NCBI RefSeq assembly: GCF_037975245.1
Contig: NC_092580.1
Span: 22,306,501 to 22,370,500, forward strand
Source of the DNA: Apostichopus japonicus
Taxonomy: Eukaryota > Echinodermata > Holothuroidea > Aspidochirotida > Stichopodidae
Direction of reading: 5' to 3'
DNA length: 64,000 nt
The notes under the pieces: model-generated
The model's database searches: none
Told to the model about the DNA's origin: nothing
The model's input: the letters and a program-made list of their open reading frames with translations, nothing else
Shown here: in pieces, positions 26,801 through 53,400 of the stretch
How the letters are laid out: every line of letters begins with the position of its first letter
How positions within the stretch are numbered: position 1 is the stretch's first letter
Program-made: the position numbers and the translations under genes

Positions 26801-27714
26801 CGCGCGTATGGAAAGCCGTTTTAACATTTAATAAGGAATTTCAGATATCTCGAAATAATTTCAGATATCTCAAATTAAATTACAGATATCTCCAATTTAT
26901 TCAAGATATCTACAAATAATTGCAGATATCTTAAAATCAATTTCAGATATCTCGAAATACAAGGGAATTTCAGATATCTGAAATTGAATTCGAGATATCT
27001 CGAATTCATTTTCAGATATCTCGAATTCAATTTCAGATATCTCGAATTCAATTTCAGATATCTCGAATTCAATTTCAGATATCTGAAATAGAATTTTAGA
27101 TATCTCGAATTCAATTTCAGATATCTCGAATTCAATTTCAGATATCTCGAATTCAATTTCGGATATCTCGAATTCAATTTCAGATATCTGAAATAGAATT
27201 TCAGATATCTCGAATTCAATTACAGATATCGGAAAATACCTGATTAAATGTTAAAATGGCTTTCCATACGTGCCATTTTAACATTTAATCGGGAATTTCT
27301 GCATTTACATTACAGATATCTGGAATTCAATTGCAGATATCTCGAATTCAATTTCAGATATCTCGAATTAGATTTGCAGATATCTTGAATTCAATTTCAG
27401 ATATCTCGAATTCAATTTAAGAATTTCAGATATCTCGAATTCAGTTTCGGATATCTCGAATTCAATTTCAGATATCTCAAATTCAATTTCAGATGATCTG
27501 AATTAGAATTTCAGATATCTCGAAATCTATTTTAGATATCTCGAATTCAATTTCAGATATCTGAAATAAAATTTCAGATATCTCGAATTAAATTTAAGAT
27601 ATCTCGAATTTAATTTTAGATATCTGAAATAGAATTTTAGATATCTAAAATAAGAAACAATTTAAGATATCTGAAATTCCCGATTAAATGTTAAAATGGC
27701 TTTCCATACGCGCG
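26801..27714. mobile_element. Foldback element filled with GATATC/GAATTC minisatellite
   Basis: Outer inverted ends CGCGCGTATGGAAAGCC (left) and its complement (right) are followed by ATTTTAACATTTAAT-type sequence. The body is a tandem array of units of about 20 bp such as TTCAGATATCTCGAATTCAA, with roughly 35 GATATC sites. At 27250-27290 a right end abuts a 5'-truncated left end, so two elements are fused head to tail. The elements lie inside the 2.86-kb hAT-type element. No coding capacity. Confidence 0.75.
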
Positions 27715-30038: not shown

Positions 30039-30460
30039 GTATGGAACGCCATGTTAACATTTATTTAATAATTAGATATATCTTCAATTTAATTCGAGAT
30101 ATCTGTAACAAATTTCAAATTCGAATTACATTGAAGATATCTCTATATATTTCAGATATCTTCTATTCAATTTAAGATATCAGAAATTGCATTTTCGATA
30201 TCTTGAATTTTATTTAAGATATCTCAAATTGATTTAAGATGTCAAGAAATAAATTAAAGATATCAAAAGTGGGAAACATTATTTTAAATATCCAAAATTG
30301 TAATCCCGATATCTCTAATTAAATTTCTGATATCTTAAATATGTTTTAATTATTGATATATGGAATTGAATTAGAGATATCTGGAAATTAATTAGAGATA
30401 TCTGAAATGAATTAGAAATATCTGTAATCATTGAATAAATGTTAAAATGGCGTTCCATAC
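30039..30460. mobile_element. Foldback element, second member of the GATATC family
   Basis: Ends GTATGGAACGCCATGTTAAC and GTTAAAATGGCGTTCCATAC are inverted copies and closely match those of the element at 26801-27714. The interior is a more decayed array of AGATATCT-containing units. Its divergence suggests an older insertion or a different subfamily. Confidence 0.7.
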
Positions 30461-44400: not shown

Positions 44401-47400
44401 TTAGAAAAACAAATGAAAATTACGAGAAAAAACGAGCAGCAAAGAAAAGTACACAAAGAAAAGAAAAAAAAGGATACATTATGTTTAGTTTCACGTCAAC
44501 TTGTTTGAAAAATATTGCCTCGCCCTCTAGATCCTTGATTCAAGCCCTTCGTAAAATGTCACAATTTCGCTTGTGTTCGATATTCAAAGGATAAAGACAG
44601 ATATTTACTGATGTCATCTACTTTCTAAACCTACCTTCCTGAAGCATCTGTTCATGTGATTCATGGCTTTGCTTGGATTGACCTGGTGTCCACAGGTCAC
44701 ACAATGAATACTTAACTCCGGCTCCTCACTATCATCAGCATCCTAAGGAAATGAAAATATATAAACTACAGGAATCAGTCGTTGCTGTATAAGATTTCCT
44801 GTTAAACATGAAATACTCACTAGTAAATTTTGAGAACATTTTGGAAGAAAACAAAAGGGGGAAAACCATGTGTGCTCTTAAGGATTGACAAACTGAATTG
44901 GAAGGGCAGAAATAATCTAATGAAACCCATTGCTGGAACTGAAATTATATTTATTAATTTCACACATTTACAGCAAGGTTCCATTTAGGATTTCAGACAA
45001 ATTTTTGGATCTATCAAATTGGGAGACTACAAAATCAATCATCTGGGCAGACACACTGTTTGAATATGATTTCTAATAACTGTTGGGAAGGTGTTGTTTA
45101 TTTTTGGTGTATACCTCTCTACATTTACCCAACCAATTGTATGCTACACAATTTGTAATATTCCATTTGGAAATCAAAAGGCCTCAGTTGTCTAGTTTTT
45201 AAATTGTGGTAACCATACCCACTTAATCGTTGCTGTGGCCGAGTGGATAAAGGCTGTGGCATTTGAAGCAATGAGACTTAGCAATCGGGAGCTTTGGGGT
45301 TCGATACTCCGCCGGGTTACAATAAGGTGGGTTTTTCATCCAAGAGTAATCTACGGTTTTCCCATTTGAATCGACTCTCTAGATTGAAAAGATTCCAAAT
45401 TCAATTCAAAATGTTGAATTGGTAGCCACCCGACGTGTAAGTTGTAATCCACATCTGTGGTCGCTTAATTGCGTAAAAATAACTGATTATTATTATTACT
45501 TAACTGACTTCTGCACACACACCCCAACTATGCTCTACCAGAAATAAAACTATGGTCCATTTACGATATACTTAAACTCACGTTCACTTTGGAATCGATT
45601 GATACTTTCTTGCATCTTTCGACCAATCTGTTCAGTTCAACTATTTTGTTGTCAAGATCTGATATTTTCCTCCTGGCCTCTTCCATCTCCTTCCTGGTCC
45701 GTTCCAATTCCCTTCGGTTATTTTCTTCGGCGATGCAAGGACTCGTCTGCCACTGCTGAATCCGCTGGGGTAAGAACTCAAACAGTCGACTGAAAGAATA
45801 TGTTAACCCAGGAAAAGGTGTACAAAATTCTTAGGGTATTTGTGTTGCACAGTTTTACACATATTCAATGCAACAGACCAAGTTCCTATTAAAGAACATA
45901 AAAGGATAATTCAAAATAATTTGCAACAGCTAGTTGCATTGCAATTTCAACCTGCATAAACATACAACAGCGGCACACGAATATCCAGCATTTGGTTTAC
46001 ACTATCAAGCTTTTCCTTTTACAGGCCACAAAGGAGGAATACGGTAAACTAACTAAACTAACTAACTCTCAGCAGGGGCAGACTGACCAGTCTGGCAATC
46101 GGGCAGTGCCTGAGGGACAAGATAAGGGGCCCACTAGTTTCCACAGCCCTCTATGGATAATGATATTTAGTATGCTTCCGTACCAGTTTCATTCTAACAT
46201 TGTAGACCTTATTAATGTAAGATGCATAAGGATGTATGCAGACATCTCAACGGTTTCTCTTAGGAGAGGTATGGAGGGCCCCCTCACCTTCTTATTGTTG
46301 GCTATGACAATGATGGATGATGCACAATAACAGTGGGGGGGGGGGGCCTGGATCAACTTCATTTCTGTCCTATCTATCGCACAATGATAGATAGCATTGA
46401 AAGAATCTCTCTTGATCTAAATGACTTCAAAGCAATTTAAATTTAGAACAAAATTCTGGGAAAGTTGATGCTTACTTTGTGGCTAGTTTCATCCCACAAT
46501 CATCGCTACAATATTTGCTGTTTGCCCTCTGTGGTGTCGTACATCCTGGGCCATAGCACTGCTCCCTTTTCACTGGGATTGGACTAGCTTTGGTGATCCG
46601 TTTGGGCGGGCTTTCATACGACTTGTGGGTGTAGCTGGACGTTCTTCTCTTCAGCTGCGATCTAATAAACTCTCTCTCCTTCTCCTTTGCCTTTTCCTGA
46701 CACAAAGAAAACATCAAGTCGACATTGAAAATTGATATTTACCTGCACTAATTATATCTACCTCTTTGAATAAATGACTTACATGAGCAAAAAGAAGACT
46801 ATTCAAAATGTTAGTTGTTTACATCAAATTCAGATTGCGCTGTAACTAAATACCCTCAAAATAGGTAAAATGATAAATTGGAACCGCCATCACTTTAGAA
46901 ATACTAATATGAAACTAAAATAGTGCCAGGCCTATGATCCACCCCCAAAGGTGAGTTTTACGGGCCCAAAGCTGCTATACTATTCACCAAACCTAAGTAC
47001 TACACATTACTACAACAGTGTACATATTGTTTCATTCTTTGCTATTTTACTACATTTGTTTTTTGGACATCCAATATTAGCTGTTTTGCTTCATAATTCT
47101 GGATGATATCGTCCCTTGTTTCGCGTACTGACGAATGTTAGAAAGTTATTTATCATGATCCAAATCAATTCACTGCTTTGCAACTGAATGTTTGATCACA
47201 AATAATACCTTTTAAGCAGTATCTATAGATTTATATTACAGAAAACAAATTATAGTTTATAGACGTTTCAAATTTTAAAGGATGTAGAACTATTTTAAGG
47301 GCATATAAATGTTTTAAAAACATTCGTCACTACGTAAAACAAAATAAAATAATTTGCATATTCATCAGTGCGTGAAACAAGGGACGATGTGATCTGCTCA

Positions 47401-50400: not shown

Positions 50401-53400
50401 CAAAAACTGCCATAATTTTACTTCCTGGTTGAATGTAATTGATTTAACTGTTCCTCACAAAATTCTTATCCAGTTTCATAATGCAATTTCCATAAATCTG
50501 CATACCATTACTGTTTGATCAATTGCTACCCAGGCAGACGACAGTTAGAAGAACAAAGACCAGGAGTGAGGTATGTTTGATGGGAGAGGTTCACTGGTTA
50601 GGAGGGGAGGATCATGTTGATAGAGATTCTGGGTATTTATTAAAAGGTGTAAAAACCAAAGAATTAAGTAAATTACCACCTGAAACTGATACACTTTAAT
50701 CACTCATGCTAATTTAGTTTTTGACCATGAATAATACAGAGGTAAACATCTGTGAAAAAACCATGGTGATATGGCCCTTACTGCAATAAAAATATATTGG
50801 GAAGACATTTTTTTTTCTTTCCGAGGGGGGGGGGGGGAAAGGAAGGTGGTGGAGGGATTAATATACCACATTTCTAAAATTCTATCTGATTATTTGCTAA
50901 CGACTTACAGGTTCAACTTCTGATTCTTCAGAGACGGGTGGTTTTGGCGGGGTGGTCTTCAGTGTATGCTTCATAAACGTTTTCTGCAAAAAAAAGTTAT
51001 GGAATTTAGTGACAAGTCCTTAACAGGAAAGAACAAATCACAGACAACTTCCGAATTGATAATGGTATGATATCCCCGCTCCTCCCCCTCTTTCTTAGCT
51101 AATCTTTATTAAAGGGTAATTAAAATTATGCTTGTAAACTATGTTGATTCAGAATTTTTATGAAAACAATAATTCAGAATTCTTCAAACTTCTTACAACT
51201 TGAAGAATAATTTGATATGTTTTAAGACTAAACTATCAAATTTACTTGGACTATATAAAGATCCCTACAAATATAATCACAACAGTAATATCCATCCTGT
51301 CAAACTTACATTTCCATACTTCAAGCACTGTCTCTTACGACACTTTTGCCGTATCTTTCCAGGTCCACCAAACTTCTTCATGTCCTGAAGATGAGAGAGG
51401 TGATAATAGAATCATAGATAGATCACACAAATGGTTATCAGTATTTAGGTTGCTTCAGAAAATACCAAGAGATTAAAACCATATTTTCATGAACAACTTT
51501 AATTGTCTTCCTTTTTTCCCCCTGAACTTGTCAATATTTCTATGCAGTCTACTCTTCACAAGATAGTTTCGTCTTCCAAAATGTTAAACTCAACTAAATT
51601 AAACTAACATTAAATGAAACCAAACTAGAATAAAGGACAATTATATTTCAGTAACTGTCGAAATCTCTCTGTCTTCACTACTTACCAAACAGAAGTCACA
51701 TTTGCCGCAGTCACTCCTCAGACAAGCCTCGCATTCCCCACATCTACGGATATTTCTCTAAATGGAGAAGAAACAGAAGGCCTTACAGAACCGATGTAAG
51801 ACTACGAAAAATCTCTTCTGGTTTACAATGTACTGTAAATGTTCTTTCTGAGTCTTTGTGTTTTTTCTTTTGCAGAGTACAAGACAGCATATATACGTCA
51901 GTCAGTTTAAACTCTTTGAGTCCTACTTTTCCTCTCTCTTACCGAGTCCTCTATCACCTTAACAAACTGAATCATCTTTCAATTAAACCAAGACCTCTGT
52001 CCCCTAACCTTTCCTTTATTCTCTTATCCCTTATCTTATTGAGTTCCCTTCCTTACCTTACCTTATAGAGTTCCCACTCCCTTAATTTACTGAGTTCCCT
52101 TTCTCTTGATTTACAGAGTTCCCTCCCCCAAACTTTACTTAGTTTCCTTCCCTTACCGAGTTCCCTCTCCCTAACTTTACTGAGTTCCCTTCCCATCCCT
52201 TACCTTATTGAGTTCCCTTTCCCTTACTTTACTGAGTTCCCTCTCCCTTGCTTTACTGAGTTCCCTCTCCCAAACTTTATTGAGTTCCCTTCCCTTACCT
52301 CATTGAGTTCCCTTTCCCTTACTTTACTGAGTTCCCTCTCCCTTACTTTACTGAGTTCCCTCTCCCTTACTTTACTGAGTTCCATCTCCATTACTTTACT
52401 GAGTTCCCTTCCCTTACTTAACTGAGTTCCCTTACCTTACTAAGTTCCCTTTCCCTTGCCTTATTGAGTCCTCTTTCCCTTCCATCTCACATTCTCTCTC
52501 CCCTCATCTCATGGAGTTCTCCTTTCCCTTACCTTACTAAGTCCTCTTTCCCCTTCACTGGATGAATCACGTCGCATTGACTTCATCTCAATCATTTTTT
52601 TCAGTTTCTCTTTCTTTAATTTCTCTTTCTTTTTCTCCTTCTTGATCATCTTTCTCATCTCCTTGTCTTCTCTGCTGTCTCTTCGAGGTTCTTTACCTTG
52701 CCTCTTATCTTTGTAAATAGTCACATTTGTTGGATCTCTTTCTAAAGAGAGAAAGAGAGACAGAAAGGCATGAACGGTTTGCAGTTTCAGTAAAAGATAT
52801 TCTGTATCCATTGATATAGTGGTGCAGTCCAAAATAGAAATTGTAGTTTAAAAACACTGTTACCAACCAGTTCCAAAAGATGAATTAAGATGATGAACTT
52901 AGCCAAGGCTTACCCTGTGGCAAATACTGTAGCACTTGGCTTTCTAAATGGCCCCTCATTTCCCCCTTACATATTTTAATATAATTCAGGCTCTCTCACG
53001 ATTCTTTTTTTTCCTTTCAGATGCATGAGTAAGACTTGACGTAAAGCTTTTAACAGTCACCGTTGCTAGCAAATTCTATATTAATCAACATTATGTCATT
53101 CTTATTGTTGTGTTCAAACTATTTTCACATTTTGATCTCTTCTGAACTACCCAATGACCTTTGATCTCCACCAAAGATTATTTTGGCCTCTAGTAAAATA
53201 GGAAAGAGAGTTTATGATGCATGAATTGGACACTTCTAATATATTATGGACGAAGACTTTACCAATGCACGGCGGACACGCATAGCGCTTAATTTTACTG
53301 GATTCCGATTCTTCTACGCCAACACACGAGCCATGGTACCATTCTTCACAGATGTCGCAGGCACTAAAAATAGAGATTAAAATTGTAAATGTCAATCCTT

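Follow-up and report, generated by a model that had tools for sequence, protein, structure and literature searches.

The closest described counterpart of the repeat considered here is the 31-bp VNTR of the human CBS gene, reportedly described by Lievers et al. in 2001. Its unit lies at the boundary between exon 13 and intron 13, comprises 24 exonic and 7 intronic bases and is present in 16–21 copies (c.1444_1467+7(16_21); PMC2630376), and a larger number of units has been linked to lower activity (PMC5188458). We analyzed a window (a stretch of 64,000 nucleotides of the holothurian Apostichopus japonicus, located in contig C20 of an assembly of 671.6 Mb in 35 contigs) where the CXXC1 (CFP1) gene has an array at the boundary of exon 4 and intron 4. 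The junction-spanning donor array is already known as a type from human CBS, and CXXC1 is a further case. In both genes the unit spans the junction, the exon end comes first, a donor lies within the unit and the copies number 16–21 (CBS) or about 20 (CXXC1). However, CBS units are invariably 31 bp long and differ by single substitutions, whereas those of CXXC1 are degenerate, range from 17 to 28 bp (among them 17, 23, 25, 27 and 28) and have mostly weakened donors. The CBS copy number also varies between people, whereas the CXXC1 array is known from one assembly.

Several other known systems resemble this locus in part. Tandem duplication of a splice junction has produced, as presumably in CXXC1, competing sites (two in that case), one of which is strongly preferred so that the mRNA remains intact, but that duplication was a single event at the other end of the intron and formed no array. 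Ordinary intronic minisatellites share with the CXXC1 array the unit size, copy number, higher-order periods and drift between units; unlike theirs, the CXXC1 unit demonstrably copies the adjoining exon end and donor. In DOK7 intron 4 (PMC5585400), just as in CXXC1, there are nearby donors of similar strength, one choice of which leads to a truncated product. However, DOK7 has two sites under known SRSF1 control, whereas CXXC1 has a tandem array known from sequence alone. SRSF1 favours intron-proximal donors and hnRNP A1 favours intron-distal ones (PMC5585400), and given these opposing effects the sequence does not by itself dictate the winning CXXC1 donor. In the open-access literature searched, whose coverage is incomplete, no survey of donor minisatellites was found.

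The CXXC1 locus and its array

CXXC1 is a minus-strand gene with collinear exons. When joined, the exons match the PF00628 PHD, PF02008 zf-CXXC and PF12269 CpG_bind_C domains (E 4e-93 for the latter in the domain search), and the top PDB match of the CXXC finger is CpG-binding protein 3qmb. The presence of a PHD finger, a CXXC finger and a CpG-binding C-terminal domain in a single gene establishes its identity. A second, array-free CXXC1 copy was sought in the same genome and none was found. Exon 4 (52533–52741, minus strand) leads from the PHD to the CXXC finger and is 209 nt long as read from its acceptor. It was delineated by the reading frame, its ends being fixed by a GAA codon split across exons 3 and 4 and by a phase-0 join to RNIRRCGEC. 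The exon is of low complexity, with 76% purines, and ends in ACTTAGTAAG|GTAAGGG (AGTAAG|GTAAGGG at the junction). The true 5' splice site, AAG|GTAAGG, occupies positions 52527–52535 of the minus strand with its GT at 52532. It has the top score (7.4) among the 12 donors of the gene (median 4.4) according to a generic donor matrix rather than one trained on this species. Intron 4 (51758–52532, minus strand, 775 nt, phase 0) is followed by exon 5 (51686–51757, minus strand), which encodes the first half of the CXXC finger.

The array is a 24-bp minisatellite with the consensus GAACTCAGTAAAGTAAGGGAAAGG, delimited by TRF, a unit list and alignments to 52019–52544 of the minus strand. Its first unit is the exon end itself (from about 52544), the 3' 20–24 nt or so of exon 4 making up the exonic half. 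It is followed by a degenerate unit (52472–52519) and by the regular array (52019–52481), for which TRF reports a period of 24 bp, 17.4–19.5 copies and 76–79% matches, as well as higher-order periods of 95 and 119 bp. The head-to-tail arrangement and the unit size (within the range of about 10–60 bp) are those of a minisatellite, and the inclusion of the exon end and donor in the unit, with the exon end as the first copy, makes it junction-spanning in the CBS sense.

The relationship between the exon end and the array is borne out by several comparisons. The exon–intron junction aligns to the unit consensus with a score of 51, and no sixty-base window elsewhere (6,324 in total) exceeds 23, so that outside the array the junction is the sole good match to the unit. 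Exon 4 together with 13 intronic bases scores 45, a value reached by none of 3,000 dinucleotide-preserving shuffles. For the exon side alone the score was equalled in 33 of 3,000 shuffles, a weaker result because exon 4 is purine-rich. The segment GGGAAAGAGGACTTAGTAAGGTAAGGGAAAGG is identical to the nearest good intronic unit at 29 of 32 positions. In a 30-base stretch spanning the donor, 27 positions of unit 2 and 25 of unit 3 agree with the exon, compared with 19–25 in the other units. In other words, exon-proximal units are the closest to the exon, and distal units have diverged, frequently within the donor. Given the alignment score and this proximity gradient, the exon end is best read as the first unit, and the exon–intron junction is very probably where the array originated. 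We infer the direction (junction first) from the coding nature of the exon and from the gradient. The original prediction, which had about 20 units deriving from the real donor, is thus supported as to both copy number and derivation, but it had taken the unit to be 18 bp rather than 24 bp long; the corresponding 18-mer, AACTCAGTAAAGTAAGGG, occurs exactly in only four places.

We rejected two other identities for the array. A piece of a dispersed repeat or transposon does not fit a sequence found at one genomic locus only (by a DNA search that may skip simple repeats). As for a present-day coding repeat, RERELSKV-type units do continue the frame of the exon, but a stop follows after seven residues, unit lengths are uneven and frames are broken.

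Donor quality within the array is uneven. The 9-mer of the true donor, AAGGTAAGG, recurs at four later sites on the minus strand: decoy 1 (52430–52438, GT at 52435), which lies 97 nt past the true donor; decoy 3 (52198–52206, GT at 52203); and the overlapping decoys 4 and 5 (52051–52064, GT at 52061 and 52056). Decoy 2, GAG|GTAAGG (GAGGTAAGG; 52293–52301, minus strand, GT at 52298), is nearly identical. Four weaker sites, as read from the sequence (GT at 52370, 52346, 52322 and 52227, within 52222–52373 of the minus strand), have the form AAA|GTAAGG, the commonest donor-like site in the array. These may be usable too, since a real CXXC1 donor at position 46475 (AAA|GTAAGC, after an exon ending in MKLAT) likewise has A at −1, as do most array units. 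In the remaining units the GT is lost or the donor is replaced by GTTT, GTTA, GC, TC, TT or AT. Thus, about 20 units include five strong and four moderate donors, the rest being weak or broken, so that the array lacks the intact donor in each unit that marks the CBS type. Apart from the true donor, nine sites in intron 4 score at least 4 (11.6 per kb), compared with five such sites over about 6 kb in ten other introns.

If translation continued past the true donor, it would yield VRERRTP and, 21 nt into the intron, a TGA (52509–52511, minus strand). This TGA precedes the junctions of the five strong decoys by 74–453 nt. The usual rule for nonsense-mediated decay (NMD) sets a distance of 50–55 nt. 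With the stop at least 74 nt ahead of each strong decoy junction, all five would qualify as unproductive (a premature stop at least 50 nt before the new junction). Use of any of them is therefore expected to bring in the TGA before the CXXC finger, with exon 5 dropping from the frame, and to trigger NMD. The original prediction had correctly read the exon 4 end on the minus strand and the VRERRTP peptide with its stop. The exact AGTAAG|GTAAGG copy that it placed near 52431–52449 is present at 52441–52430, within the estimate. Truncation of CFP1 before the CXXC finger can be predicted for the strong decoys, but the description of the intron as a string of decoy donors was overstated.

Similar arrays at other genes

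Studies of how cells choose between identical 5' splice sites have relied mostly on engineered minigenes, and natural multi-copy donor arrays, present at several genes in a single animal, would offer a direct test of position versus strength. The genome was searched for three AAGGTAAG spaced 16–46 bp apart and then for CAGGTAAG, and the 5' boundary was read in 28 arrays of the first kind and 11 of the second. This survey favours arrays with intact consecutive donors, and its counts cover the matches listed. In this set of 28 and 11 arrays, at least seven start at the donor of a database-supported coding exon. The genes are an aldo-keto reductase (AKR; L014, PF00248 exon), AMFR (L071, G2BR PF18442 exon), a BEACH protein (L070, PF02138, 5e-36), Rubicon (L067, PF21054 exon), JMJD6 (L068, PDB 3ld8, 2e-34), talin (L069, C4:27302100-27303300, PDB 3fyq, 3e-12) and CC2D1 (L061, PF21528 exon). 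Arrays at L056, L057, L072 (a weak case) and L073 start at donors of open frames with no significant family match. At the seven loci, the similarity between the exon copy and later units extends 10–35 nt into the exon, allowing no more than two mismatches. The exonic match is exact over 23 nt in talin, 20 nt in JMJD6 and 28 nt in CC2D1, and the match in the BEACH gene is only 10 nt long; when 561 pairs of AG|GTAAG sites were drawn at random, none reached 12 nt. A neuron-navigator exon near a AAGGTAAG array (L011) turned out to be a chance neighbour, the array being some 530 nt away with a unit unlike the exon end.

According to translation, splicing at a later donor would introduce a stop at nearly all of these arrays. 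In talin, which has a 33-bp unit, one decoy is passed in frame (VRIQQLNESAK), and at L073 (C2:13554800-13555800), with a 33-bp unit encoding VSHxSVQIVTK, all four decoys are in frame. Later-donor use at these two loci would extend the protein by 11-residue repeats rather than introduce a stop (at one decoy in talin and at all four in L073).

Genome-wide, AAGGTAAG triples showed no donor excess, with 143 matches versus 139 for the reversed pattern (overlapping, among the matches listed). For CAGGTAAG the corresponding figures were 216 and 145, mostly from a few large arrays (again overlapping matches among those listed rather than array counts). On the acceptor side, a small sample of seven TTTTGCAG arrays, not counting one dispersed family, contained none that was clearly anchored at a coding exon. 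In a separate observation, locus L077 (C9:9192300-9193500) has a repeated 40-bp unit ending in ACATTTTGCAG and then CAAAATGTCTAACCGACGAG|GTATGA, possibly a small exon with an ATG, and could represent an acceptor-side counterpart.

Such arrays might be anticipated from the repeat content of the genome. In a sample of 164 kb, consisting of ten arbitrary 10-kb pieces and the window, we counted 14 minisatellites (period 15–60, at least three copies), or about 85 per Mb and 1.9% of the sequence. At this density, and assuming 150,000–250,000 introns for a genome of such size, repeat births across some donors are to be expected. It is tempting to go further and propose a recurrent class of donor minisatellites in this genome, generated by tandem copying over the exon–intron junctions of working genes and some with 8–25 near-identical donors, in which the exon-most donor would be chosen by position rather than strength and the number of repeats would govern leakage into NMD or, with in-frame units (talin, L073), into longer proteins. 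We put this forward tentatively and consider it rather doubtful. The arrays also illustrate a route by which repeats may pass from exon edges into introns and possibly into coding sequence. CXXC1 alone is a modest finding, and the recurrence of the architecture within one genome is of more interest.

Origin and effect of the CXXC1 array

In our view, the array most probably arose when a splice junction was tandemly duplicated in a genome rich in minisatellites, and has been passively tolerated, being at most a mild drain rather than an evolved switch; we give this a probability of roughly two in three. Slippage or unequal exchange would have tandemly copied some 20–24 nt at the end of exon 4, together with the first bases of the intron, and the copies would have spread into the intron. 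They could be tolerated because the exon-most copy preserves the reading frame and a working donor, at which most splicing presumably takes place. Leakage to a later donor would lead to the premature stop and nonsense-mediated decay, so that any drain that the array imposes on CFP1 would depend on copy number and be mild at most. As an intronic copy of the junction leaves both exon and donor intact, ordinary repeat birth and tolerance suffice. Nevertheless, by the example of CBS, whose activity is lower with more units, the effect in CXXC1 need not be mild.

The same CBS precedent (PMC5188458) could be taken in favour of an array with a regulatory role, the view of the original prediction, in which donor copies compete for U1 and their number sets the NMD-bound share, thereby tuning CFP1. 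Four exact donor 9-mers and one near copy within a single intron, the nine sites scoring at least 4 compared with five in ten other introns (about 6 kb), and the stop that every strong decoy would include are all compatible with such tuning. We nonetheless consider it unlikely, since donors are weakened or broken in most units, and the similar, better-preserved arrays of talin, JMJD6 and other unrelated genes point to tolerance. That unrelated genes share the architecture argues against a regulatory story specific to CXXC1. A beneficial array appears very improbable: the U1-complementary sites are indeed repeated and GGG triplets number 40 in intron 4 versus 0–24 in the other introns, so they might strengthen exon 4 recognition or guard the transcript from early polyadenylation, but both features follow passively from the unit sequence and the intron is short (775 nt).

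The order of events might also have been the reverse, in which case a purine-rich repeat came first and one of its units later gave rise to the exon end and donor through a donor shift. The low complexity of exon 4 (76% purine) and the continuation of its frame by RERELSKV-like units would suit this order. However, the array reaches only one unit into the exon, and the stop codon, unit lengths of 17–28 bp and broken frames leave no past coding evident. Moreover, at the seven other loci the coding exons are complex and conserved, and the unit must derive from them. For these reasons we regard a repeat-first origin as quite improbable and favour duplication from the junction.

Other repeats and small contigs

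The window also contains a large 21-bp array at 26837–27677 (about 38 copies of AATTTCAGATATCTCGAATTC, with a palindromic GATATC core), pieces related to which occur at 30124–30428. Elsewhere in the assembly, the tandem-repeat family TTTTGCAGTAGGGTCTTAG is found on many chromosomes (C1, C10, C11, C12, C13, C14, C15 and C18), and the family CAGGTAAGGGTAAACTAGGG on C2, near 1.16, 1.23 and 8.23 Mb. Contig C35 (16,099 bases) resembles a mitochondrial genome. When the mitochondrial COX1 is translated with the invertebrate code, lysine appears at positions that are asparagine in animals (GGFGKWLIP, FPRMKKMSFWL), which is consistent with AAA coding for Asn and thus with a probable echinoderm. Contig C29 (31,219 bases) has more COX1 pieces at a spacing of some 15 kb, a pattern that would fit either a nuclear copy or a concatenated mitochondrial contig.
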